NCBI GenBank assembly: GCA_021292105.1
Contig: CM037874.1
Location: forward strand, 19,713,534-19,777,533
Origin: Anadara kagoshimensis
Lineage: Eukaryota > Mollusca > Bivalvia > Arcoida > Arcidae
Length of the DNA: 64,000 nt
Direction: 5' to 3'
The notes under the pieces were generated by a model. It made no database searches and was not told the origin of the DNA. It saw only the letters and a list, made by a program, of their open reading frames with translations. Shown piece after piece: positions 5,075-39,799 of this stretch (position 1 is its first letter; every line of letters begins with the position of its first letter). Both the position numbers and the translations under genes were made by a program.

Positions 5075-8000
5075 TTACTCGAATGGTAACCATTTCAGTT
5101 GTCTCACAGCCAGACCTAATACGGCACCCAACATTCCTATCTCTGCCAAATGTCCAAAGGCACCCCAACGTCTGTTATCAGGCTCTGTGTAAATAAAAAT
5201 ATATAATTTAACCTAGTTTTGTCTCAATTATGGCAAACGGTTGATTGTTGGTTGTTGTCAGAGCAGCGACATCGATCCCAATACTAACAAGCAAATTCAG
5301 TGAAATTCAGCAGGTTCTTTGTGATTTGCACTTCATGCTTATGTGAGTGATGTCCCTAACATTTGTGCTAACTATTATCCCTTTTCATATACATTGATAA
5401 ACAAAATTTGATAGCTTCTTGTGAAAAAAGAGGAGTCTCTTTAAAGACAAATACTGTTGCCAACATTGCTTAGAGTACCAAATCTAAAATTTGACTTTGT
5501 GAAGTTTGATCTACACACTAAACTTTAGTATGCAGCACAATGTCATATGTTGGTATATAGTTGATCTCTGATTGATTGAATTCCATCAACAGACATTTGT
5601 CTTATTTGAAAAAATTTAAAGGGTCTCAACTCCTAAAAAATCAATGTACTGGAACAGGAAAATAATATGCACAACTAAACATTCCAATTATTATTCCTGT
5701 TAATTTTTTTTACTACTATCTGATGGACAGTTTGGAGACCTTGTGAGAACAAAGAGTGACTGACATGGGTATGGATAGACAGAATGCATTATTATATAAT
5801 TTCTCACTGGAGATAAAAATATAAAACCCAAAATATTAAATATACATGTACTTTAAAATTTAAGAAAATGATCAGATTATCTTATAATACATGTAATTTT
5901 ATACCTCCTGTGTAATATCCCTTAGCATATGCAATTCTACTGATGATGTAAACCAGACCAAATCCAGCACAGGCTTTCTGAAATGAACACAATAGTCTGT
6001 TTTACTGTTGTAACATCAATATTAGAGCCATTTTCTTTAAAAATAAACCAAATTGAATATTAGTTTTATATAATGTATTCATCCAAGATTTTGATGTTAC
6101 CAGTTCCACAATCAGGGATCTACCGTAAATTAAATGTTTAGTATGATTTCAGATACCAGTCAGATTGTCTGTTCGGGATGCAGTTTCTCATACCCTGCAT
6201 TTGTTTAACATAATTTGAGATACCAATTAAATTGTCTGTTTGAGATGTGGTGTCTCATACCTTGCAGAAGTTCTGCCTATTTTCAGACACTGATCGAATT
6301 ATCTATCAAGATTGGGTTTGACATAACCGGTTGATGTACATTATGATTTCTATATGACTTGTATCACGATTACACTTACAGGATATTGTAGGCCTCCAAC
6401 CAACAGCAACATAAGGAAAGTAGGATGTGATTCAAGGCTAAAATAGAATATAACATGTATAATAAACATACAGTGGTACCTCTCATAATAGAGGTAAATA
6501 ATTGATTATTTCAATCTAGGCCAGATGATGGTTCTATTTATATGTATATTTGTTGCCCTAATTATTTAGGTATTTACCGACATGATTTAACACTTTATAG
6601 CATATGAAGAAAAAAATTACTGTTTTATAAAAATCAAGAAAAAAAAAGTCAAACACAAACCAAGTACATGTATAAACATTTTGACATAATTGATTTCTTT
6701 GTTTTGAAATTACTTTTTAGTTTCAATGGTAATTTTTAGCTCGCACTTAATTAAATTGATAATACATTAATGAATACAACACTTAAATGACAATTAAGAG
6801 ATACTTGGTGTAATTTATGTTTTTTGCCAATTATTTTAATTACTTACGTGTTCTGGTGAGCTCTCTGAATGCAGTTAAACATTTTGTTGTCTGGACTATA
6901 CATAGTGGGATACTAGATAAAACATAAAACAAACAAAACATTTTTATAAATATACTTAAAACAAGAAGCCCATGGGCCTTAACGCTCACCTGAGGCTGAG
7001 TACATATCTCATGCAGAGGTTTAATGGTCAATGACATTAATAAAAGAGAATATCAAAATTTTTAGCAGCAAGGGCCAATAATATGCAAGTATTTTTTCTG
7101 CAAATTAATTATAATAATTATTATATAAGTATGCTATATATCACATATCTAAAGTCTAGCTACAATATATTATTTATAAACAGTTAAAACATCTATATGT
7201 TTAAATTTCACTAGGTCAATACCTACAATACTCTAATATACATGCCTATACAAAAAGTTTATAGTTTTTGAGATAATTAACCATTTACGTATTCATTCAT
7301 GTCTTTGACCTTGACCTTTGAACCTATGACCTTCATTGGTATATCAAAATATCGTTAGGCCAATACCTACAATAATCCAATATACATGTCTATACAAAAA
7401 GTTTAGTTTTTGAGATAATTAACCATTTCAGTATTCATTTGCATCTATGACCTTGAACTTTGAACCTATGACTTTTATTCATATATCAAAATGATTGTTG
7501 TGCAAATGCCTACAATATTCTAATATACATGCCTATACAAAAAGTTTATAGTTTTTGAGACAATTAACCATTTCAGTATTCGTTTGCATCTATGACCTTG
7601 ACCTTTTAACCTATGACCTTCATTCATATTAAGCCAATACCTAAAATATTCTTATATACATGCCTATACAAAAAGTTTATAGTTTTTGAGATAATTTACC
7701 ATTTCAGTAATTGTTTGCATCTATGACCTTGACCTTTGAACCTATGACCTTTATTCATATATCAAAATGATTGTTGTGCAAATGCCTTCAATATTCTAAT
7801 ATACATGCCAATACAAAAAGTTTATAGTTTTTGAAATAATTAACGATTTCAGCATTTGTACGTGTCTATAACCTTGACCTTTGAACCTATGACCTTCATT
7901 CGTATATCAAAAAGATTGTTAGGCCAATACCTACTATATTCCAATATACATGCCCATACAAAGTTTATAGTTTTTGAGATAATTAACTGTTTAAGTATTT

Positions 8001-11000
8001 GTTTACATCTATGACCTTGACCTTTTAAACTATGACCTTCATTCATATATCAAAATGATCCTTAGGCTAATACCTACAATATTCCAATATACATGTCTAT
8101 ACAAAAAGTTTATAGTTTTTGAGATAATTAACCATTTCAGTATTCGTTTGCATCTATGACCTTGACCTTTGAACCTATGACCTTCATTCATATAACAAAA
8201 TGATTGTTAGGCAGTACCTACAATATTCCAATATACATGCCTATACAAAAAGTTTATAGTTTTCAAGATATATTGACAAATACATTAATTTTAGCGATTT
8301 CCCTCTTAAGTACCTTGCCATTTCCCCATTTTGGCCTCAACATTTATGATTTGTGCAAATCTGAAACTAGGTGCCCTAAGTATGTTTCATATGAAATATC
8401 TAAGCTATATCTCTTGTAAGTTCAGAGGAGATGATTTTTAAAGATTTTCACAATTTTCCCCTTTATAGGGCCCCCAGGGGACATAATCCTTTCATTTTTG
8501 TGCAAATCTGAAAGCCCCTCAACCAGACTTCATTACTGCTAAATATCATCCAATTTGGCTTTGCACTTTTAGACGAGTTCATTAAAATGTGAAAAGTTTA
8601 CACACGACACAGGACGGACGACGGACGAAGATAGATAGCAATAGCTCATCTGAGCTAAAAAAATTAGGAACCGATGTAAAATTTGTAATGAAAATCAATA
8701 ATTGAAGAAAATATAAAATTCATCAGTATTTTGTTCCATGTTTTCTTGTTTCAAATGATGAAATAAAGTAAATTTTTGTGCATGGAATTAAATCTCATTA
8801 ATGAAAAATTTTATTTTGTTCCATGTTTTCTTGTTTCAAATGATGAAATAAAGTAAATTTTTGTGCATGGAATTAAATCTCATTAATGAAAAATTTTACA
8901 AGAAGTGTACCCCATAAGGTTTTTAATTGTGAATGGGGCTCATTATCAGCCCTAAACATGAAACAAGAGGCCCAGGGGCCACATCGCTCACCTGAGCAAC
9001 TTGCTAGGTAGAAGCCGAAATGAGTTCAGTATTGAAGTGAGTGCAGGGGAGGGAGGTTTTGTACAAACTGAAATCTATACTTCCTACCGATGCTTTTCAC
9101 TAAACAATTTGTAAGTATTTCTATGTACCATAAAAGGTTGATGTTTCGACAAGCCTCGGCTTATTCCGTTACCTTTTTCTTACAGCATTTCAACCAATGA
9201 AATAATTTTAAAAAAAATTTTCATCATGCAATCTACCAATCTCAAAAGAGAGAAAATGCATATGCCGAATACTGTAATCGGGAAATGGCAAATAGAAATT
9301 ATAGAATACAGCAGGATTTACATTAAAAATTAGCTTTTAAATACAAGTACAATTAATATATTTCTCATGAACAATATATTTAACTTTATATCAAAATACT
9401 TATATAAAAGAATACAGCATGGAAAATACACTATTATTTAACCATGATTTGAACAAACTTGAATCTACACTACCTGAGGATGCTTCCATTTTAATTTGAG
9501 CTTTCCTGGCCTAATAGTTTTTGAGGAGAAGATTTTTAAAGATTCTCTCTATATATTCCTGTGTAAAACTTGACCCCCCTCTTGTGGCCCCACCCTACCC
9601 CCAGGGACTATGATTTGAACAAACTTGAATCTACACTACCTGAGGATGCTTCCATTTTAATTTGAGCTTTTCTGGCCTAATAGTTTTTGAGAAAAAGATT
9701 TTAAAAAATTTTCTTTATATTTCCTATGTAAAACTTGATCCCCCTCTTGTGACCCCTCCCTACCCCCGGGGACCATGATTTGAACAAACTTGAATCTACA
9801 CTACCTGAGGATGCTTCCATTTTAATTTGAGCTTTTCAGGCCTAATAGTTTTTGAGAAGAAGATTTTTAAAGATTTTCTCTATATACTCCTATGTAAAAC
9901 TTGATCCCCCTCTTGTGGCCCCTCCCTACCCCCGGGGACCATGATTTGAACAAACTTGAATCTACACTACCTGAGGATGCTTCCATTTTAATTTGAGCTT
10001 TCCTGGCCTAATAGTTTTTGAGGAGAAGATTTTTAAAGATTCTCTCTATATATTCCTGTGTAAAACTTGACCCCCCTCTTGTGGCCCCACCCTACCCCCA
10101 GGGACTATGATTTGAACAAACTTGAATCTACACTACCTGAGGATGCTTCCATTTTAATTTGAGCTTTTCTGGCCTAATAGTTTTTGAGAAAAAGATTTTT
10201 AAAAATTTTCTTTATATATCCTATGTAAAACTTGATCCCCCTCTTGTGACCCCTCCCTACCCCCGGGGACCATGATTTGAACAAACTTGAATCTACACTA
10301 CCTGAGGATGCTTCCATTTTAATTTGAGCTTTTCAGGCCTAATAGTTTTTGAGAAGAAGATTTTTAAAGATTTTCTCTATATACTCCTATGTAAAACTTG
10401 ATCCCCCTCTTGTGGCCCCTCCCTACCCCGGGGACCATGATTTGAACAAACTTGAATCTACACTACCTGAGGATGCTTCCATTTTAATTTGAGCTTTCCT
10501 GGCCTAATAGTTTTTGAGGAGAAGATTTTTAAAGATTCTCTCTATATATTCCTGTGTAAAACTTGACCCCCCTCTTGTGGCCCCACCCTACCCCCAGGGA
10601 CTATGATTTGAACAAACTTGAATCTACACTACCTGAGGATGCTTCCATTTTAATTTGAGCTTTTCTGGCCTAATAGTTTTTGAGAAAAAGATTTTTAAAA
10701 ATTTTCTTTATATATTCCTATGTAAAACTTGATCCCCCTCTTGTGACCCCTCCCTACCCCCGGGGACCATGATTTGAACAAACTTGAATCTACACTACCT
10801 GAGGATGCTTCCATTTTAATTTGAGCTTTTCAGGCCTAATAGTTTTTGAGAAGAAGATTTTTAAAGATTTTCTCTATATACTCCTATGTAAAACTTGATC
10901 CCCCTCTTGTGGCCCCTCCCTACCCCCGGGGACCATGATTTGAACAAACTTGAATCTACACTTCCTAAGGATGCCTCCACAAAAGTTTAAGCTTTACAGG

Positions 11001-11082
11001 CCGAATAGTTTTTGAGAAGAAGATTTTTGAAAAATACCAACAAAGTTTCAATAATTCTCAATTATCTCCCCTTTAAAGAGGG

Positions 11083-20965: not shown

Positions 20966-22235
20966 CAATAGTGACTTACTTGACTTATTTCCGTCTCTCC
21001 GTGAGGAGAATCGGGCCGTTTACAAGTTCTCTCCATTTTCCTCTATCAGTTGCTACTTTTGTTGCCTCAGTCCATGAATTGTATCCTAGTTCCTTTCGTT
21101 CTCTTTCAATAGTCCTTCTCCAAGTCTCTTTGGGTCGCCTATTTTTTATCTTCTCCTTTGGTGTCCAGGTAAGTGCTAGTTTTGCGTACCTGTTGTTTCT
21201 CATTCTCAAAACGTAGCCTAGCCATTTCCATCTTCTTTTGATTGTCGTGCTGATCTTTTCTGCCCCAGCTCTTGCTCTTGTTTCTTCATTGGATATTTCC
21301 TGTGGCCAGTAGATTTTTAAAATTCTTCTTAGACATTTATGAAGGAAGGTTTTGCGTCTTCGGTTTTTGTCATTTTCCATGTTTCGGTGCCATGCAGGAG
21401 GACTGGGAGTACATTTGAGTTTAGAAGGAGGAATTTTGTTCTTTTTGAGACCTGGCTGTTGTTCCAGATAGGAGTTAGTTTGCTGAATGTAAATCGGGCG
21501 AGGCATAGTCGTCTTCTGATATCTTCATCTGTCCCCCCTGTGTTAGTTAGTATTGCTCCTAGGTATGTAAAGGTTTTGACATCTTCAATTACTTTCTGGT
21601 CGTTGCTTGTGATCATTTGAGCGTTGTTCGCATTGTATCTCATCACCTTGGTCTTTGACGCGTTGATTTTGAAGCCGGTGGAGTGGACGTTGTTACTTAC
21701 GTCACTGAATTTTATATGAAGCTGATCTTTTGTACTTGAGATTAACGCAATGTCATCTGCATAATCTAGGTCATCCAGTTTGGTTGTAAAGTTCCATCTT
21801 ATTCCTGTGTAATTTGTGGCATTTAATTTTCTTATTACCCAGTCGAAAACCATGAGAAACAAGGAACATGTTGCAACCTTGCTTAACTCCTGATCTGATT
21901 TTAAACCAGTTTGATGCTCTACTTGATGTTATTAGTCGTTGTTGCTGTACATGCATTTTCCTGTTTTGAATATCTTGTCTGGGATGCCATATTGTTTCAT
22001 GATTTTTCATTGCGTGTCTTGGTGAACACTGTCGAATGTTTTTTGAAAGTCAATGAAACAGATGTTAAGGTTGGAGTTCCATTCTACAGTTTGCTCAATA
22101 ATGTTCCTGAATATAAAATTTGTTCCTTTGTGCCTCGTCATTCTCTGAATCCTGCCTGTTCTTCCCTAAGGTGTTTGTCCACTTGTTGTGTTATACGCTT
22201 GATGATGATTTTACCAAGGACTTTTTTCAATATAC
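20966..22235 (-). pseudogene. RTE-like LINE fragment: RT catalytic core to 3' end, frameshifted
   Basis: Overlapping minus-strand frames reconstruct an ORF2 piece: FIDFQKTFDSVH (about 22060-22025), the GVKQGC turn (about 21890), catalytic YADDIALISS (about 21740), GFKINASKTKVM and TYLGAILTNTGGTDEDI (about 21660-21530), and finally the GRPK/TWRRT-type C-terminus and WTEATKVATDRGKW (about 21150-21040). At least two frameshifts separate the pieces. The 3' tail GGAGAGACGGAAATAAGTCA matches the copy at 16840. The 5' part, including any endonuclease, is missing. RTE-like is my best placement; CR1-like is possible. Confidence 0.8.
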
Positions 22236-23078: not shown

Positions 23079-23341
23079 ATAGGTAAATAACTTTGACCTG
23101 CCAGTTTGACCTTTCATTTTAATTATTTTTATCACGAACCAAGTACAGGTACATGTATATGTATAGGAAACACATGATTGTGTTTATTTTGTTTACACCA
23201 TAAGACATACTCACCTCATAGGGTAAACCTGTGCACCGTGTATGTATGAACTTGGAACTACCTATGTACATAATGTGGGCCCTCCTATATTAATATACCT
23301 AATGAAAGGTCAAACGGACAGGTCAATGTTGTTTGCCTATA
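23079..23341. mobile_element. Inverted-repeat element, AGGCAAAC family, copy 1
   Basis: The left end GGTAAATAACTTTGACCTG + CCAGTTTGACCTTTCAT is the inverted counterpart of the right end AATGAAAGGTCAAACGGACA + GGTCAATGTTGTTTGCC. Related copies lie at 27017-27436, 29491-29906 and 34504-34734. TIRs are about 38 bp and the interiors differ. Confidence 0.7.
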
Positions 23342-28400: not shown

Positions 28401-30680
28401 GATAATAAGTCAATTTATCGAATTGCTATGTCGATTTATCGAAATACTAAGTCGATTTATCGATAATAAGTCGACTTATCGACATAGTTAAGTCGATTTA
28501 TCGAGATAATAAGTCGATTTATCGACATAGTTAAGTCGATTTATCGAGAAACTAAGTCGACATATCAAATTAAAAAAAATTGTCGTGGCCCTAATACGCT
28601 TCCGTAGTATGACAGTATGGTTGTTATTGATTCATTACATTCTTATAAATATTCTTTTAAGACAAGTATAAGGAAACGACAAAAAAAAAAAAAAAAAGCA
28701 AATAGTTTTATATCTGAAATGTTTTAGTTATCACTGAATTAAGAGAACTAACTATCCTATCCCGCCTTCGGTACAGAACAATTTATCATACTGACTACGT
28801 TACGCATATTTTTTCAGGTTTTAGGTCACTTACGTATACCAATTACACCAATGCCTAAGGGTTCTGACATTTAGTGTTATATTGATCTAAATTCTCCATG
28901 ATCATTCATTTTGTGTATACGAATACACGAGCTTTTCTTAGAATAGACCCATACTTTACAAATCGCTTTAAAACATAGATTACGTGTTTGTACATGTATG
29001 TTATGCATATACCTTGACCAAAACACATCAAAATTTGTCTTTCTTTAGAAGCCATAAAGTCCACATTGTTGCAATTTTAAAAGCATCAAGGGTGGTATTA
29101 AAATTTCTGAATACTAAAAGAACCACACTTGCGTTAATTTGCAGATTAAAAAATAAGTAACAGAATATTTCACATGAATATACACTATTCGTTTATAAAA
29201 TGGTCGTCATGCTACTAAAATCGCCTTAATAAGATCAACAAGAGACTAGAAAACTATATACTAGTATGCCTTATCTATACATATAACATAACTTATATTA
29301 GTTATACTTTTCCTAAATGAGTATGCTATCATGTTTAACAAAGAAGCAAAGATACTAGGTTGTTTTTGGTTTTTTTTTGCTAATATTGTTTGTTTTGTTG
29401 CCATAATAAATATTAAAGTGGAACCAGATATTTGTATACCATATAAAACTTTTTTGTGAATGTGTCGTGGTGATAAACAGTTGTAAAACTTAGGCAAACA
29501 GCATTGACCTGTCCGCTTGACCTTTCATTGAGAAAATGCACATGCGAAGATCTACCTAATACAAGGGTCCTACAGGATTCGCCGTTAATACATAAACAAT
29601 TTACATTTTCTGTTATATTTCCACGTGGTCAGGATGTTATCTGTACATGAAGACGACACATCTGTTCGTGTTGGTAGACATTTTAATACTTAAACATTTA
29701 ACAACGTCAACGTGAAAATGCATACGTCAAAACCGTAATTGTTGTTTACATAAATATATTCATGAAGCTTCATGGTTACAAAGAGAGATAACTCTTAGTC
29801 TTGTTAGTCCATAATACAACATTTTTCATGATGTACACCATAAATAACTTGTCCATAATAAATCGTTTATTGAAGGTCAAGCGGACAGGTCAATGTTGTT
29901 TGCCTATACCTTGCGTGTAAACATAAACTTCTTAAGCATCATCTAGTAGCATTTTATGATCCAGACTACTTGACAGTACAAGTATACATATACATGTAGG
30001 GTATGGTGTATATGAACAGTATTTAGACTTAACTAATCATTCTTTGTCCCCGACCGGGACTGATCCAAGACTTAAAGGTGGGTATATGTAGTGACTGTTC
30101 TTTCGCCAAGCACTCGGCATTACGAAATGAAAATCAGGGTTCTTTCGGATGGGAACTTAAAATAAACGAGTTCCCGTGTCACGGTGGGCTTGGCACGATA
30201 AAGATTCCTGGTGTATAATTCCATCAGCGCAACCCACAGGCAAAATGTCTACAACTTCGCCTATAGCTGGCAACGTTTCGATAACAGTGAAATATTCTTG
30301 AATGAGACGTTAAACACCATTACGCAACTCTCCTCAACTTAACTCTAAAGTCTTCTCTTATGCAAATGCAGGTATTTGACTGCAAAGGTTTGTTTGTAAA
30401 TTCAGATACTGGAGTTGACTTCGATTGGTACATTGGAGCGAATAATGCCGCAGATATCAATAAATTTGTTTGGGAATATAGTCAGCAAACCGTTCCATTG
30501 CCAGGCAGTTCCCAAGGCTTTCAGTTTTGGGCACCAAATGAACCAGAAACGAATGTAAATGAAAGATGTGTAGAAATAGATCCAGAACTTAACTACAGGT
30601 GGGATAATGACGAGTGTTACGAACTGGAACACTACATCTGCGAAAAAAAGGTAGTAAACGATCGAAAAATACCGGAATAG
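23814..30680 (+). CDS. Secreted C-type lectin-domain protein, five coding exons
   Basis: Five exons with GT..AG junctions and consistent phase give a 201 aa protein: 23814-23898, 25250-25318, 26298-26386, 27551-27638 and 30406-30680. Residues 1-20 (MCSIKVFILTVFLSCVYQCD) are a signal peptide. After a short linker, a C-type lectin-like domain runs from C56 to C189. It has an extra N-terminal disulfide pair (C56/C67), the canonical C84-C189 and C165-C181 pairs, WYIGANN at 118-124 and FWAPNEP at 151-157. The sugar/calcium site is atypical: EPE (156-158) replaces EPN/QPD and WDND (176-179) replaces WND, so binding specificity cannot be inferred. No transmembrane segment. The likely role, from family knowledge only, is extracellular recognition such as mollusc innate immunity. 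The earlier AG at 30372-30373 would bring an immediate stop, so the acceptor at 30405 is used. Introns are repeat-filled. Confidence 0.9.
23961..24288 (+). mobile_element. RUDI-like SINE in lectin intron 1
   Basis: The head has AGTCAGTTGGTAGAGTGATC (A box slightly mutated) and a perfect B box GGTTCGAATCC (24003-24013). The GACTTGGCACGATAAAGAAC core and TCTCGATATAAGTGAAATAT tail follow, ending in ACTCAACTCAAC. Confidence 0.85.
24342..24371. repeat. Mixed C8/A21 homopolymer tract
   Basis: C8 runs directly into A21. Confidence 0.9.
24505..24820 (+). mobile_element. Diverged RUDI-like SINE in lectin intron 1
   Basis: The head CGTATCTCAGTTGGGAGAGT with B box GGTTCTAACTC is followed by a diverged body. 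The tail CGTCTCGATATAAGTGGAAT then GACCGTGACATAATACCCC is older than the neighbouring copy. Confidence 0.75.
25381..25421. repeat. (CA)n microsatellite in lectin intron 2
   Basis: Perfect CA run of about 20 repeats. Confidence 0.95.
25560..26252 (-). mobile_element. DINE/pearl-like element 3 in lectin intron 2
   Basis: The minus strand starts TAACAAGAGGTCATATGGGC then CTTATACGCTCATCTGA, homologous to the 5' ends of elements 1 and 2. About four diverged ~145 bp units follow, containing TATTGGAATATTGTAGGTAT and AAAGGTCAAGGTCA (plus-strand reading), homologous to the 7200-8270 array. The 3' hairpin was not found. Confidence 0.65.
27017..27436. mobile_element. Inverted-repeat element, AGGCAAAC family, copy 2 (lectin intron 3)
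   Basis: Left TAGGCAAACGATATGAACCT + GTCCGAATGACCTTTCAT; right AAAGGTCAAGCGAACAGTTC + AATGTTATTTGTC. Inside, a second inverted pair is built around GAACCCCAATTGTTCTTTAT and ATAAAGAACAATTGGGATAC (27153 and 27266), so the element is internally palindromic too. Confidence 0.7.
27906..28601 (+). mobile_element. Small DNA transposon with 26 bp TIRs and subterminal TCGATTTATCGA arrays
   Basis: Perfect TIRs read AAGCGTATTAGGGCCACGAC + AATTTT at 27906-27931, with the inverse ending at 28601. Subterminal DNA is filled with the near-palindrome TCGATAAATCGA: four copies on the left (27930-28020) and about fourteen on the right (28272-28565), including a ~62 bp tandem duplication. The centre keeps a truncated transposase reading frame (28055-28294). 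No clear target duplication. Lies in lectin intron 4. Confidence 0.85.
28055..28294 (+). pseudogene. N-terminal remnant of an integrase-type (IS3EU-like) transposase
   Basis: 79 codons: MMASNLVVEYFKLGLSNKEI begins a helix-turn-helix region, followed by ISIRTLKRLMKKLGCFRR and DVALFIVSEC. A LGLSNKEIL...ISIRTLKRxLKxLGLxRR pattern opens eukaryotic rve-integrase proteins that I associate with the IS3EU group. Here the frame runs directly into the right subterminal repeat (TKSIYRIV) and the integrase core is absent. The product, if made, would be a DNA-binding-only fragment. Confidence 0.6.
29491..29906. mobile_element. Inverted-repeat element, AGGCAAAC family, copy 3 (lectin intron 4)
   Basis: Left TAGGCAAACAGCATTGACCT + GTCCGCTTGACCTTTCATTG; right ATTGAAGGTCAAGCGGACAG + GTCAATGTTGTTTGCCTA. 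This is the best-preserved TIR pair of the family (~38 bp). Confidence 0.8.
30044..30345 (+). mobile_element. RUDI-like SINE lacking its tRNA head (lectin intron 4)
   Basis: It begins just after the B box position (CCCCGACCGGGACTGATCC) and continues through GGCTTGGCACGATAAAG to the GAGACGTTAAACACC tail and CAACTCTCCTCAACT end. It stops just upstream of the last lectin exon. Confidence 0.75.
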
Positions 30681-32654: not shown

Positions 32655-32666
32655 AATATATTGAGG
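32655..32666. repeat. Left target-site duplication of the L1-like element
   Basis: AATATATTGAGG here recurs identically at 39788-39799 directly after the 3' poly(A). A perfect 12 bp direct repeat at both ends indicates a single target-primed insertion spanning everything between. Confidence 0.85.
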
Positions 32667-32806
32667 GGGTCACGTGACAGGGCAGGGCAATGGACGTGTT
32701 TTTGTCGGCTCTGTAGATTTCGAAAAAAAACTTGGTCAAAATGTAATATATAATACCTAAAGTTAACTAATTTGATATCGAAACTGTCGGAGATACCAAG
32801 GAGCAT

Positions 32807-34081
32807 ATGTATAATATGAACGAGAGAGAGAATAAGAGGAAACGAATGAATAGCGCAACACAGACAGAACCAGAAAATACAGTGAGTACAGAAAATATGG
32901 CGACGCAAAATGTAAACAAAGTAGATGAATGCACAAATGTAAATGACACCAATACAGCACAAATATTAAAAGCAATAGCTGGAATACAAGACACTGTAAA
33001 CAACATTAACAGTAAGATTGACAATAACACAACAAGGTTGGATAAATTACACAATGACATTCACGATCCTCTCGGGGGTATCGAACACAGGTTACAATCC
33101 TTAACGGACGAAAAAAACTACTCTGGCGAAGTTATTGCACAGTTACAAAATCAAAACAAGGTCATAATTAATGAAATGAATATCATGAAAGGGTATATAG
33201 TGAAATTGGAACAGAAAGTTATATCTCAGCAGAATCAGATCACTGATATGGTAGGGCGTGGCATGCGTGAGAACCTGATAATTAATGGCTTTAAGGAGGA
33301 GGAGGGAGAGAATTTGAAAGAGAGGTTCAGTCAATTTATCAAGTCAAAGCTAGAAATAACAGGGGAAAAGATTAAAATAGATAGAATTCATAGATTTGGT
33401 CAGAAAAATAAACACCACCCACGTCCCATTGTTGCCAAATTCCATGATTATACACAAAAAGAATTAGTTCTAGAAAAAGCAAAAAGTATGAAGTCAGACA
33501 TTGAGCCAGTTAGGATATCACCACATTTCCCGGATGAAGTCCGAGAAAAGAAAAAACAACTATTTGAACTGAAAAAACAATATGAAAAAGAAAATGTAGC
33601 AACAAAAATTAAAGGTGATAAGTTAGTATTCCCTGCCAGTGGCAATGTCCATAGAGAAAAGGTTCCAATTCCAAAAGCAAGCGAAGTGCTCGATTCAAGT
33701 GAGAGTAAATTTGAATTTGAATGCTATTCCGAAAGTACAACAATCAGTGATAGAGGAAATGAATTCATTGGCCGTGCCACTAAAGTAACAACATACAATG
33801 AAACCCGAGAAGCTGTTCGACAGATACTGCGAAAACCAGAAACAATTTGCTCAACACATAACACTTACGCTTACAGGTTTACGGATATTCACGGAAAACA
33901 ACATAACGGATTTGATGACGACGGAGAATACGGAGCAGGAAATAAACTTTTAAAACATCTAAAAGATAATAACTTTGATAACGTTCTGGTGGTTGTATCA
34001 AGGCATGCAGGTGAAAAACTTGGACCACAAAGGTTCATACATATGATTAATGCTGGAAATGCAGCTGTTACTAGTATGTAA
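32807..34081 (+). CDS. L1-type ORF1 protein fused to a C-terminal IMPACT/UPF0029 domain
   Basis: Intact 424-codon frame. A polar N-terminus (1-48) precedes a predicted coiled coil (about 50-150), then an RRM-like region (about 153-225: RENLIINGFKEEEGENLKER and IDRIHRFGQ) and a C-terminal nucleic-acid-binding domain (about 230-285: ISPHFPDEVREKKKQL), as in L1 ORF1p (Transposase_22). Residues ~303-424 add something foreign. FIGRATKVT (320-328), ICSTHNTYAYRF (347-358), FDDDGEYGAGNKLL (369-382), VLVVVSR (393-399) and KLGPQRFIHMINA (404-416) follow the order and spacing of the IMPACT/Yih1/YigZ family. The usual YGG of VVVSRxYGG is HAGE here, so one glycine-rich turn is altered. Expected role of ORF1p is RNA binding in a retrotransposition particle; IMPACT proteins in eukaryotes bind GCN1 and inhibit GCN2. 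Any transfer of that activity is inference. A second ATG at codon 4 is an alternative start. Confidence 0.9.
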   Translation: MYNMNERENKRKRMNSATQTEPENTVSTENMATQNVNKVDECTNVNDTNTAQILKAIAGIQDTVNNINSKIDNNTTRLDKLHNDIHDPLGGIEHRLQSLTDEKNYSGEVIAQLQNQNKVIINEMNIMKGYIVKLEQKVISQQNQITDMVGRGMRENLIINGFKEEEGENLKERFSQFIKSKLEITGEKIKIDRIHRFGQKNKHHPRPIVAKFHDYTQKELVLEKAKSMKSDIEPVRISPHFPDEVREKKKQLFELKKQYEKENVATKIKGDKLVFPASGNVHREKVPIPKASEVLDSSESKFEFECYSESTTISDRGNEFIGRATKVTTYNETREAVRQILRKPETICSTHNTYAYRFTDIHGKQHNGFDDDGEYGAGNKLLKHLKDNNFDNVLVVVSRHAGEKLGPQRFIHMINAGNAAVTSM

Positions 34082-35518
34082 CAAAGCTTATGTGTTCAAA
34101 CTCATAAACTTAATTTGTTTAATTATCATTACTTGCTGTAAATAAGTTAACTGGTTGAACATTTTAGTAATCGTTTCCTCCTTATTTTGATGCTCCTATG
34201 CGTACCTAGATGTACCCTACATTATGGACGCAACACCCTGTATTATAAACACAAACAAAGCTAAGAAACTGCAGCATCCGTTTCTTAAAATAAATTAGTT
34301 ACGGTAAAATTCAGACTATTGTCGTATAACTACATGTATAATATTTATAACAATATTACAATACAACTGAATATAGGTTGGTGCAGTTCCATAGCTCAGT
34401 TTGTAGATATCATTAAACCTTTTACAACTAAATTTCGGATAGAAAAATATAACCACGTGCTTGTGTTTACAAAACATCTACTGTAGGTCATTGTTATTAT
34501 TGCAGGCAACAGTGACCTCTCTGTTTGACCTTTAATTTAAATACACTTCGTATACCATAGAATATGCCACATATGCACAAAGATAACTAAATGTTTATTC
34601 CGCCCATATATAGGGAACAGTAAACACGTGTGTATTAACCGCGAATCCAAACTCAAGGGATAGATAATCCATCAGAATAATTCCTAAGGAAGGGTCAAGC
34701 AGATAGGTCAATGTTGTTTGCCTATATGTGAAAAGTCGGGTCCTGAACTGTATTATCAATAATTATAGTGGTCACTATTGTATACCCGATACACAGTCAA
34801 TACGAGACAGGTAAAAACAGTAGCTTTTGTACGCTACAGGTAAAAATCTTGACTGCGCATGTCTGTTTGTGTTACATAATGTTTATGGATAGATAGAAGA
34901 TAGAGAGATGCAAAACCAGGACGAAGAGGTGTTTTATTATTAGTATTTTGGAAAATTACGATAAAAACATATATTTAAACAAAAGACTCGCTATTATAGA
35001 AATTTTAAGATCAAACAATGGACTTTAAAAAAATTAATTATCGTAAAAACTAAATCGATAAAATACATGTAGTACGTAATATGAACCGCCTCTCTGTCTG
35101 ACTCATGCATGTCTAATGATGTGACTGGCAACATAAGTGTAATCAAGATAAAAACATGTAAAGTTCAAAGTCAATATATTTTACACCTAAAGCTTTATAA
35201 GTTGAATATCATAAATACTTACATATTTTGTTTTTTATGCTGCTATATTCCATGACTAATTTTTACACACGAGTAATCTAGAATCATCCATTATCCTAAC
35301 ATACGGGTGTTACTTATCTATAGGAAGTACATTCACGGGTGAAACTGCGGTCAATAAATTAACCGAGGTCAAACTCTGTCAATATTATATTAATAAATTT
35401 CATTGATCAAATTTAAGGACCAAATATATAAATTTTGATTTATTCTATAGAAATTTAACTAAGACAGAGAATATGTAGCTGACAGTTTCTAGAGACTTTT
35501 TATAATAGTATATTATAC
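34082..35518. other. Unusually long inter-ORF region of the L1-like element
   Basis: L1 inter-ORF spacers are usually tens of bases; here ORF1 stop to ORF2 start is 1,678 bp. It contains the AGGCAAAC-family element at 34504-34734 and a tRNA-like stretch (TTCCATAGCTCAGTTTGTAG, about 34387-34406). The remainder is AT-rich and unrecognised; it may be native to the element or further nested insertions. Confidence 0.5.
34504..34734. mobile_element. Inverted-repeat element, AGGCAAAC family, copy 4 (inside the L1-like element)
   Basis: Left AGGCAACAGTGACCTCTCTG + TTTGACCTTTAAT; right AAGGGTCAAGCAGATAGGTC + AATGTTGTTTGCCTA. The TIRs are more diverged than copy 3. Its position inside the L1 target duplication means it either post-dates that insertion or was carried by the source copy. 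Confidence 0.65.
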
Positions 35519-35767
35519 ATGCCTTGTAACTTGGTTAAAATTATGTTGACCAAACATCGAAAAAGTTGCGTGACTTTAATGACGATTGTCTTTTTGTTTG
35601 TTTTTTGTTTTTGTAATGTTTGTCTTTGGTATGGGTGGCGTGTGTATGAAGTATTTATAGGTATATATTGTTCAACATTATTACTGTCTTACTGCATCAA
35701 TCTTGTATTATCTAAATGCGAATTTTCTGGTGACCTAAAACAAATATATTTACCACACAATGGCTGA
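35519..35767 (+). CDS. Small hydrophobic ORF overlapping the ORF2 start
   Basis: 82 codons starting MPCNLVKIMLTKHRK, with two hydrophobic stretches (TLMTIVFLFVFCFCNVCLWY and FIGIYCSTLLLSYCINLVL). The TGA stop (35765-35767) lies inside the second and third ORF2 codons, so the frames overlap by 8 nt. That arrangement could permit re-initiation at ORF2. No family recognised; in AT-rich DNA a frame of this size can arise by chance. Confidence 0.3.
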   Translation: MPCNLVKIMLTKHRKSCVTLMTIVFLFVFCFCNVCLWYGWRVYEVFIGIYCSTLLLSYCINLVLSKCEFSGDLKQIYLPHNG

Positions 35768-38700
35768 TATAAAAGTTCTTTCAATCAATTGCAGGGGTCT
35801 AGGGGAACAAAACAATAAAAGGCGGGATGTTCTTAACTTTTTAAAAGCAAAGAAGTTTAGTATTTATTGCTTACAAGATACTCATTTCGTTGAAAAAGAG
35901 ATGAATAAAATTAGAACTATATGGGGATTTGAGGTCTATATGTCTTGTGGGAAAAGTAATTCCAGGGGAGTGGCAATACTTTTTAATAATAATTTTGAGT
36001 TTAAAGTTACAAATGAAATTACAGATAAAATTGGAAATTTACTTATTTTAGAACTTTTGATAGAAAATAAACACACAGTTACTCTGATTAACTTATACGG
36101 CCCAAATACAGATGAAGCAAAATTTTATACTTATATAAAGTCTACTATACAAGAATTGAATAATGATTTTGTGATTATCACGGGGACTTTAACCTGGTCC
36201 AGGATTCTAATTTAGATTATTTGCACTATAAGAAAATTAATAACCCTAAGGCAAGACGGGAAGTCCTATCAATGAAGGAATTTTTAAAACTTGTTGATCC
36301 CTGGAGAGTAAATAATGAGAACAAAAAATGTATACTTGGTTCTGTTCATCCCCCAAAAAGAGTGCCCGTTTGGATTTTTTTCTAATCTCCGAGGAACTGA
36401 TGTCTCTGGTCAATAGAACCGATATCAAACCTGGTTACAGAACCGATCATTCCCTTGTAGAAATTGAATTTCGTTTTTCAAATTTTCAAAAAGGAAAAGG
36501 ATTCTGGAAATTTAATAATAATCTTCTTAAAGATATAGATTATGTTAATAAAGTAAAAAAATTAATTTCAGAAGTAAAAGCAGAATACATGGTGAATACA
36601 CACCAGGAAAACGATAAGGAAGAATACACATTAATTATTAACGACAACTTATTTTTAGATTTATTATTACTGAAAATTCGAGGTCTTACAATTGAATATA
36701 GTTCTAGGAAAAATAAAGAGGGGAAAAATAAGAAAAGACAATTAGAAAAAAAGTTAGGCGATCTTCGAGAATTAAATACACAATTTCCCGATGTAATTTT
36801 CTATAAAACAGAATTTGAAAATGTTAATAAAGAACTTGAAAAAATACGTGAAAACTATATGAAGGGGGTTTGTATCAGGGCTAAAGCAAAATGGATAGAA
36901 GAGGGGGAAAAACCAACCAAATACTTCTGTAGTTTAGAAAAAAGAAATTATATTAATAAAACCGTAACTTCATTAATAAACGATAAAGGTGACCTTATAA
37001 CTAACCAAAAAGAAATTTTGTCGGAAATCGAAATGTTTTATAAAAAATTATACAAAAATAAAGATGAATCCCTTGAAGATGTTGACTTAAATCAAATTCT
37101 TGATTTTGAAGATATTCCAAAATTAAACGATATACAACGAAGTGCTATTGAAGATAAAATTACATATAAAGAACTTTTGAAGGCTCTAAAAAACATGAAA
37201 AATGAAAAGTCCCCGGGACCAGACGGATTCACAGCTGAATTTTTCAAATTTTTTTGGAACAATATATCTCCCTTTTTGATCAGATCTTTTAACTATAGTT
37301 TTGAACAAGGAGAATTATCTTTAACTCAAAAACAGGGGATAATTTCAATATTACCTAAAGGAGATAAGTGTAGAAATTATTTGAAAAACTGGAGACCAAT
37401 TTCATTGTTAAATGTGACATATAAATTACTCTCGAGTTGTATAGCTAATAGAATTAAATCAGTCTTAGACTTTCTGATCCACGAAAATCAAAGAGGTTTT
37501 ATATCTGGCAGATTTATTGGGGAAAATACAAGAATTATATATGATGTTCTACAGTTAAGTAAGGAAAATAATATTCCTGGAACCCTGCTATTAGTTGATT
37601 TCGAAAAGGCTTTTGATTCTGTATCGTGGAGATTTATAAATAAAACCATGCATTTTTTCAATTTTGGACAAAATATTGTAAAATGGACAGAGATTTTATA
37701 TAAAAATGCTCAATTATGCGTGATCCAAAATGGAATTTTTTCTCAATTTTTCAAAATATCTAGAGGCTGTAGACAAGGGGACCCAATCTCACCATATTTG
37801 TTTATACTCTGTGCCGAAATAATGGCAAATATGTTTCGTCATAACAGTAATATAAAAGGAATTAAAATAGGGAAAGTTCAAATTTGTCTTTTACAATACG
37901 CCGACGACACATGTATATTCTTAGATGGCTCGGAAAAAAGTTTAAAAAGTTCGATGGACCTTCTTTTCCAATTTTCAAAATATTCAGGTCTTAAACCTAA
38001 TATTGAAAAAACTAAAGCATTATGGATAGGATCAAATATAAATAGAGAGGATGCCCTGTGCCCAGATATAAAATTAGAATGGACTAAAGAAAATTTCACA
38101 GTGCTAGGTATCAACTTCTCAACAAATCTAGAAATAATCGGAGAGATTAACTATAAAAGTAAATTAAATGAAATCGAACGCGATATTAATGCTTGGTCAA
38201 AAAGATTACTCACACCATTTGGAAAAATAACAGTTATTAAAACTTTACTATTACCTAAATTAATACACATTCTGTCAGTCCTTCCAAAACCAGACGATAA
38301 AATATTGAAAGATCTGGAGACACAATTTTATCAATATATATGGAACGGTAAATGTGAAAGAGTTAATAGAAAAAACATGATTCAAGATTACAAATTAGGA
38401 GGATGTAGGATGATACATATAGACAGTTTTATAAAGTCAATAAAATTAACATGGTTAAGGCGATTATATGAAAAAAACAATCTATGCTTAAATAATATAT
38501 TCACGGAAATTACGAAAAGTGATCTTACAAATTTTATACTTTTAGGAGATGAATATTGCCGGGAAAAATCAAAGGCCCTAAAAAATTACTTCTGGAAAGA
38601 TGTTTTAAAAAACCTAGCAGAATTTAAATTAAATCTTCCGATACTCTCTGAAGATCATTCTGTTTTAAATTCTTGTTTATGGCACAACTCCAAAATAAAA

Positions 38701-39554
38701 ATTGACGGAAAAACTATTTTTTACAAAACGTTTTTCGATAAGGGGATTACAAAAATAAGAGATTTAATTAATGAAAAAAACGAGTTCATAACAGCCCAAG
38801 AATTGCAATTAAAATTGAATAAAACAATACCGTTCACTATATTTGAAGGATTAAAGCGAGCTATTCTACATAACCATAAACTTGCCGAAGTAAGTAATAG
38901 TAATAACAGTTTAAATTCAGAAATAGAGTATATTTGCAAACATTCAAAAGGTTCTAGACACATATATAATATTTTTGTAAAATCTTTATATATAACACCA
39001 AAAACTGAATTGAAATGGGAACAAGAACTTAATATGCCCCATGATTTCCACGGGGATAAAGTTTATCTCAACATGCTCCAAAATATTAGAGATACAAAAC
39101 TAAAGTGGTTAAATTTTAGGATATTACACCGCATTTTCGGCACAAATAAATTTCTCAAGAAAATAATATAAGTCAAACTCCATATTGCTTCTTCTGCAAA
39201 ATCATTGAAGAAGATATATGTCATCTCTTTTACGACTGTCAACAAGTGCGAGAACTTTGGGAAAATCTTGAAAATTGGCTAACTGAAAAAACAACAATTA
39301 CTCATTCGATAACTCTTAAAGATGTGATTTTTGGAATTTCTGGACAAAACCAATATATTTTTAATCATATAATTACATTGAGTAAACAGTTTATTAGTTT
39401 AAGACGCTTTTATAAAAAAACACTTACATTTTCTGAATTAGAGAAACACATTTTTCAACATTATAGAATTGAAAAAACCCAATACGAACTATCTGGGAAA
39501 TCGGATGCTTTTACTCTAAAATGGAAAAACTATGCAACACTTTTTGAATACTAA
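35760..39554 (+). pseudogene. L1-type ORF2: endonuclease-reverse transcriptase, three frameshifts
   Basis: About 1,265 codons. The APE-type endonuclease starts MADIKVLSINCRGLGE with LQDTHF, and its GDFN catalytic motif spans the first frameshift (G run 36182-36185 reads GTLT; one extra G restores GDFNLVQDSN). A second single-base loss occurs at the A6 run near 36323-36330, after which SARLDFFLIS and TDHSLVEIEF complete the endonuclease. RT follows: SPGPDGFTAEFFKFFW, WRPISLLN, LLVDFEKAFDSVSW, GCRQGDPISPYLF and the catalytic YADD of LLQYADDTCIF (37893-37925). A third single-base change near 39158-39165 introduces a stop before the C-terminal zinc knuckle (CFFCK...H...C, about 39188-39240) and final 102 codons. 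Everything else is open, so the copy is young or the breaks are assembly errors at homopolymers. Confidence 0.92.
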
Positions 39555-39787
39555 ATAAATTAAAATCTTCAAGGATCACCAGATTATTTGTTATTTACTT
39601 GACTGTTTATTTACATGAAATTTTATGCTTCATTGATGCCATTCTATTTATGTTTCTGTACTTAATCTGCAGACATTTGTACAAAGTTTTCATGTATGAA
39701 AGGTGAATGTAAGTGTGCATGAATGTTGTCTTTGTCTATCTCATATTTTTGTAAAAATGTTAAAAAATCTAAATAAAAAAAAAAAAA

Positions 39788-39799
39788 AATATATTGAGG
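39788..39799. repeat. Right target-site duplication of the L1-like element
   Basis: AATATATTGAGG directly after the poly(A) tail, identical to 32655-32666. Confidence 0.85.

Follow-up and report, generated by a model that had tools for sequence, protein, structure and literature searches.

An L1-type retrotransposon lineage of the bivalve Anadara kagoshimensis with an ORF1 protein that ends in an IMPACT/UPF0029 domain

Can a retrotransposon incorporate into its own RNA-binding protein a domain known from translation regulators, and what would it gain from doing so? The question is raised by a locus of Anadara kagoshimensis (GCA_021292105.1, CM037874.1:19,713,534-19,777,533, forward strand), a stretch of 64,000 nucleotides (nt) that was analysed as a whole and is called the window below. 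The window contains a full-length, by now partly broken, member of a large L1-type lineage of long interspersed nuclear elements (LINEs), in which the protein of the first open reading frame (ORF1), ORF1p, ends in an IMPACT/UPF0029 domain. This anatomy, together with the retention of the domain throughout the family, we regard as close to certain.

ORF1 (window positions 32807-34081, + strand) is a single intact frame of 424 amino acids (aa). An earlier note on this DNA, made from the sequence alone, had described it as a complete L1-type ORF1p running on into an IMPACT-family domain at 33713-34081, and all the motifs quoted there (THNTYAYRF, DDDGEYGAG, VVVSR, and LGPQRF) lie in this frame. 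Both parts of the description were borne out. Residues 318-416 match PF01205 at E 1.2e-20, scoring 74 bits where the cut-off is 27, and by structure the domain, corresponding to the ancient domain of cellular IMPACT proteins, covers residues 305-424 (33719-34078, +), close to the extent first proposed. A profile of 16 ORF1 sequences, window included (A2), matches the human L1 ORF1p structure 2ykp (E 2.1e-7), in agreement with a fold search, and also Yih1 (6bqi, E 1.2e-21). Structure prediction arranges the protein as a type II ORF1p, with a coiled coil at residues 49-152 (32951-33262, +; long helices H49-86 and H92-152, and a profile match to 6fia, the coiled coil of L1 ORF1p), an RNA recognition motif (RRM, ~residues 153-242), and a C-terminal domain (CTD, ~243-300; both within 33263-33706, +), followed by the IMPACT domain, which matches 6bqi and has the fold of the YigZ N-terminal domain and of the Yih1 ancient domain. 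All 16 members of A2 match PF01205 (E up to 0.01); P0005, which lies outside A2, has no such match. The D, R, and G positions of the motifs (D371, D372, R399, and G406) are near-invariant in both element and cellular domains, and the per-position conservation of the two sets is correlated (Spearman 0.47).

The boundaries of the insertion place the domain inside the element, as the earlier note had argued. The 12-bp target duplication AATATATTGAGG is exact on both sides (32655-32666 and 39788-39799) and brackets the two ORFs together with the poly(A) tail; no match as long arose when the 900 nt preceding ORF1 were shuffled 300 times. Within it, all on the + strand, follow a 140-bp 5' untranslated region (UTR; 32667-32806) up to the ORF1 start, ORF1 itself, a long inter-ORF spacer of 1,678 bp (34082-35759), and an ORF2 that is indeed broken: its endonuclease part (35760-36215) matches the same part of the uninterrupted ORF2 of another copy, L013, a frame change falls between 36215 and 36328, and the reverse transcriptase (RT) fragment of 947 aa (36328-39171) is succeeded, after another frame change near 39171, by a probable C-terminal fragment in a different frame (39246-39554), which was read from the letters and has no family match that exceeds the cut-off. 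The tail consists of 15 A (39775-39789) and shares its last two with the right duplication.

The window RT matches RVT_1 (E 1e-37) and, among solved structures, fits human L1 ORF2p (E 5e-88) far better than R2 (E 1e-25). L013 is intact in both ORFs (409 and 1,204 aa); the alignment of its ORF2 with human L1 ORF2p spans residues 8-880 of the latter (E 3e-100), and the L1 endonuclease 2v0r is matched as well (E 1e-23). The APE-type endonuclease is thus N-terminal in the same ORF2 as the RT, and in the window copy it has been split off by the frameshift. By these sequence characters, namely an L1-like RT, an APE-type endonuclease, a poly(A) tail, and target duplications, the element is an L1-type non-long-terminal-repeat retrotransposon.

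Is the fusion a trait of the lineage or an accident of one copy? In the assembly searched (1,115 Mb, 36 contigs), PF01205 has 275 candidate matches, 150 of which were scored; all 150 are above the cut-off, one of them on a bacterial-looking contig (C22). Nineteen copies (L009-L027), picked for long open frames around the PF01205 match, were fetched at ~10 kb each, and in every one a single frame covers the RRM-CTD part of ORF1 and the domain, with endonuclease/RT sequence downstream. Target duplications of 12-16 nt, defined by at most 1/300 shuffles as long and a 5' copy no more than 330 nt from ORF1, were found in 8 of 20 copies (the window, L011, L012, L013, L015, L019, L023, and L026). The other 12 comprise four with 11-nt repeats (3-5/300 shuffles as long), L009 with a 9-nt repeat, L014 with an ill-placed one, and six of the 20 copies tested in which no duplication was found.

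A control independent of the domain was provided by a genome search with ORF1 residues 148-303, in which the best 150 of 765 candidates represent 142 distinct loci. At least part of the domain is present at 129 of these, some of them decayed, with stops or a partial domain. It lies directly downstream at 115 loci, by PF01205 match coordinates or in fetched sequence (profile score >15 bits); 13 of 18 further loci carry it (score >12 bits; the weakest, L091, has 22 bits and E 7e-7 over 33 residues), and L092, fetched again, completes the total. The gap between ORF1 match and domain match is 40-80 nt in 71 of the 85 cases measured. Among the 13 loci without the domain, six belong to another LINE type, and the other seven are copies that are incomplete, riddled with stops, or interrupted.

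The matches of the six other-type ORF1s (L041, L042, L043, L051, L052, and L075) stop at residue 127-140 of the 156-residue query, and ORF1 frames of this kind stop after the CTD with different tails, such as the Gly/Arg-rich repeat tail of L071. The window endonuclease part finds no match at E 1e-3 in the fetched sequence of the domain-less other-type loci, and the window RT reaches at best 29% over 157 residues there, as opposed to 40-63% in L009, L013, and L026. A second LINE type with a type II ORF1 but without IMPACT is also seen at L069-L073, where the RT of L072 is a more distant match to human L1 ORF2p (E 1e-11). In at least four (L068, L078, L088, and L089) of the seven broken copies, the others being L063 (C1:9285666), L065, and L080, the first residues of the domain are visible before the break; in L063, PF01205 is matched 1.8 kb further along. 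Copies of this family that end ORF1 near residue 290, which the earlier note had named as the sign of a read-through tail, were thus not what the search returned, since the intact-looking domain-less ORF1s belong to another LINE type. With type II ORF1s that lack the domain seen in that other type of the same genome, and with 129 of the 142 loci among the best 150 matches carrying it, we take the domain to be a trait of this L1-type lineage. The same count rules out a one-off read-through; together with relatives in several named bivalves, among them Tegillarca granosa and Mytilus, and retention over saturated divergence, it also leaves practically no chance that the fusion arose by accident and has no role.

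The relatives include two T. granosa gene models, P0002 and P0007 (name beginning 'Impact N-terminal domain-containi...'). Both match these ORF1 proteins and probably represent elements and not genes of the host. Used as a homolog query, ORF1 residues 1-300 returned one protein only, being too insensitive to serve as a control, and a scan of viral contigs with the family profile gave no relative.

The family was also entered from ORF2. A search with the L009-type ORF2 start gave 314 candidates, of which 40, with 97-100% identity, were scored; among the matches listed, PF01205 lies upstream within 3.3 kb in 12 and at 5.7-7.5 kb in two. The remaining 26 have no upstream match among the 150 scored of 275, and the five of these that were read are all 5'-truncated inside the spacer, so a domain-less element type was rejected as the source of these ORF2 copies. 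The spacer measures 511-1,678 bp in 12 copies, window included. A nested insertion peculiar to the window copy is ruled out as the reason for its 1.7-kb length by the 1,669 bp in L022, of the nearest subfamily, and the 511-1,594 bp in ten others. A stretch of ~50 bp in the window spacer (34671-34728) recurs 70-92% alike near window positions 23100, 23300, 27050, 29500, and 29880, which suggests a dispersed short repeat. A small conserved spacer protein was considered and rejected: between L011 and L019, the single pair compared, mismatches are even across codon positions (30, 29, and 30), so the small frame looks non-coding.

Retention can be gauged against the rest of the protein. We compared 21 ORF1s from the genome (L004 being the L009 locus) in pairs with an RRM-CTD identity below 75%, in which synonymous sites are saturated. 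Mean non-synonymous divergence (dN) was 0.618 for the domain and 0.588 for RRM plus CTD (193 pairs each), and 0.80 for the N-terminus with the coiled coil (173 pairs). The domain is thus close to the RNA-binding core, which argues that the tail is not unconstrained. As for the ratio of dN to synonymous divergence (dS) proposed in the earlier note, the domain and RRM plus CTD have similar dN, but with synonymous sites saturated no dN/dS value can be given. The domain has persisted across the lineage, the subfamilies of which have diverged past synonymous saturation.

Phylogenetic analysis of the domain places 22 element domains and P0033 on one side of a branch (support 99/99) and 68 cellular or bacterial domains on the other; P0005, P0007, P0008, P0012, P0013, P0015, P0016, and P0030 were left out for long branches or redundancy. 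The tree of the first set, with all 20 element domains, shows the same grouping, P0033 again inside (100/99), and in the approximately unbiased test a clade of the 22 element domains alone is not rejected (p 0.13). The simplest reading of these trees would be a single capture of the domain. P0033 itself is a low-quality T. granosa gene model that starts with the IMPACT domain and is probably a piece of this LINE absorbed into a gene model.

When trees were built for 14 copies, the deepest split was common to ORF1N and the domain (bootstrap 100 in both), and the RT tree differs, grouping L013 with the window and L026. In L009, L011, L015, and L019, nucleotide identity is 86-94% across ORF2 and a portion of the 3' UTR, beginning ~15-300 nt upstream of ORF2; ORF1 and domain of the same four copies are 59-60% identical (four pairs) or give no blastn match (two pairs). 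The likeliest cause of such a shift of identity inside the spacer is recombination or template switching, by which related ORF2s came to be joined to different ORF1-domain modules. The domain is present in every ORF1 module seen, although these copies were selected by the domain.

What might the domain do for the element? Cellular IMPACT and Yih1, in which the domain is paired with an RWD domain, both associate with ribosomes and hold GCN2 in check (PMC7140605). In Yih1, substitutions in helix H3 of the RWD domain lower Gcn1 binding (PMC4503747), and the overexpressed RWD alone hampers growth in amino acid starvation (PMC7140605, PMC4503747); no function has been assigned to the ancient domain itself (PMC7140605). 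We found no RWD domain (PF05773) in the window ORF1 protein (to E 1) or in the 16 members of A2 (to E 0.01), and the region N-terminal to the IMPACT domain models as coiled coil, RRM, and CTD instead. An element with the ancient domain only is unlikely to copy the competition for GCN1 directly, and the idea put forward in the earlier note, that the element restrains GCN2 through GCN1, is unsupported as stated. Our preferred explanation is a docking function. ORF1p would trimerise through its coiled coil and coat the element RNA with RRM and CTD, so that each trimer would display three IMPACT domains. The conserved motif surface (H-N, Y-R, DDGE, R, and LG--RF) could then dock the forming ribonucleoprotein to the ribosome or a ribosome-bound factor, which would favour loading of ORF1p onto the RNA that encodes it (cis preference) and continued translation. 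That the same positions are conserved as in cells suggests that the domain still binds its native ligand. To the whole explanation, comprising anatomy, retention, single capture, and docking at the translation machinery, we assign a probability of roughly 0.45; the particular mechanism, in which docking aids cis preference and continued translation, is tentative, with the odds somewhat against it.

Several points weigh against this explanation. The RWD, present in Yih1, was not found in the element, and the Yih1 regions sufficient for binding Gcn1, actin, and the ribosome overlap with a determinant of which the linker between RWD and ancient domain is part (PMC4503747). The element domain is weakly basic, with a median net charge of +1 as compared to -1 in cellular domains, and Mytilus versions are altered in parts of the GE and LG--RF motifs (GE to RD), so the presumed surface is not kept in every lineage. 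On the side of constraint, the dN pairs overlap and are non-independent, making theirs a comparison of means and no test, a dN/dS value is precluded, and the close pairs hold too few changes and point both ways, L017/L018 differing from L019/L020 in the domain by four non-synonymous and no synonymous changes and L020 from L021 by five synonymous and two non-synonymous ones.

The same observations bear on other functions. If the domain served nucleic acids or assembly, adding RNA or cDNA binding, chaperone activity, or trimer-trimer contacts beside the CTD and engaging no host target, its near-fixed spacing after the RNA-binding CTD would be expected, as would the shared main split of the ORF1N and domain trees, by which the parts evolve as one unit; other LINE ORF1s also have accessory domains (PHD, zinc knuckle, and esterase; PMC4120745). 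However, the net charge is nearly neutral and the element has kept the motifs found in cellular IMPACT domains, arguing for the same ligand and not a new one, and we place this alternative on the unlikely side. An enzyme, or a binder of a small ligand conserved from bacteria to animals, would agree with the near-invariant D371, D372, R399, and G406 and with a domain whose cellular role reviews leave blank; the change of GE to RD in the Mytilus lineage would be unlikely for a catalytic motif, and this alternative seems quite improbable.

A stress-response antagonist, in which ORF1p binds or displaces GCN1 or another regulator and damps the GCN2-driven phosphorylation of eIF2alpha, would keep production of element proteins going in stressed cells. 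An element that counters this pathway has a precedent: the authors of a study on mouse L1 suggest that the interaction of ORF1p with PRKRA precludes PKR activation and eIF2alpha phosphorylation (PMC10289378), and the bivalve element might likewise affect eIF2alpha by a route other than GCN1 competition. The ribosome association and GCN2 restraint of IMPACT and Yih1 would fit as well, but in Yih1 the effects on growth and Gcn1 binding lie with the RWD, the very part that was not found in the window protein and the 16 members, which makes such an antagonist unlikely. A broader version would be a transposon-encoded IMPACT mimic, in which ORF1p trimers act on ribosome-associated stress sensing (GCN1/GCN2 or an adjacent factor), keep translation and cis-loading going under stress, and circulate as modules between ORF2 lineages for this reason; this, too, we consider speculative and unlikely.

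Compared with human LINE-1, the bivalve element shares the two ORFs, an ORF2 with APE-type endonuclease and RT whose best match among solved structures is human L1 ORF2p, the type II ORF1p fold, the poly(A) tail, and target duplications of 12-16 nt; it differs in an ORF1p that runs on into the IMPACT domain and in the long spacer. With IMPACT and Yih1 it shares the ancient domain with its DDGE and R(W)-G-LG--RF motifs, but no RWD was found in the element, the domain is fused to ORF1p, and the element domains group apart from the cellular ones. Modular ORF1s with added domains are known from the LINE ORF1p types I-V, and horizontal exchange of ORF1 between lineages has been proposed; the passages that name such domains do not list IMPACT, and the word is absent from the text searched (PMC4120745). 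TRAS LINEs, too, captured and kept a foreign domain, a viral helicase, but theirs is of viral origin and sits in ORF2 (PMC5563155). A study of bivalve LINEs mentions ORF1 once in the text searched (PMC10294476). No earlier description of an L1-type LINE with this ORF1 accessory domain appeared among the papers listed from the open-access literature searched. The earlier note, which knew of no described ORF1p-IMPACT fusion, agrees with that search, whose scope excluded most subscription journals and the element databases (Repbase and Dfam). The accessory domains that the survey passages name for LINE ORF1s are few (PMC4120745), and each hints at some host-derived requirement of the element; stable retention of a domain related to translation regulators would point to access to translation or the ribosome as such a need. 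In addition, the ancient half of IMPACT here works naturally apart from an RWD partner, so that the function of this very widely conserved domain can be put to the test.

Bacterial YigZ-type proteins have an additional C-terminal domain. One such protein is encoded on the 728-kb contig C22 (L028:4914-5243, +; motif DDGEPSGTAGKP, scoring 118.9 bits with PF01205); within 10 kb there are also a tRNA-Trp and a gene with a PCC domain, and the contig is probably a bacterial symbiont or a contaminant in the assembly. Its match, the best to PF01205 in the genome, was ruled out as the host IMPACT gene for its sequence, which is of the bacterial type (YigZ/TT1547, bacterial UPF0029). It has a GTAG form of the motif, which is not seen in the element alignments. 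A six-frame exon search of the assembly did not find the host IMPACT gene, though an intron-bearing gene could escape it.

Elsewhere in the window, a fragment of another retroelement lies at 20985-21862 (-), with an RVT_1 match (E 2.1e-8) in the frame 21329-21862, and a frame resembling a C-type lectin exon (30360-30680, +; PF00059, E 6.8e-6) is situated ~2 kb upstream of the element. Two large tandem arrays occupy 7212-8270 (145-bp unit, 7.4 copies) and 9441-11028 (166-bp unit, 9.6 copies).
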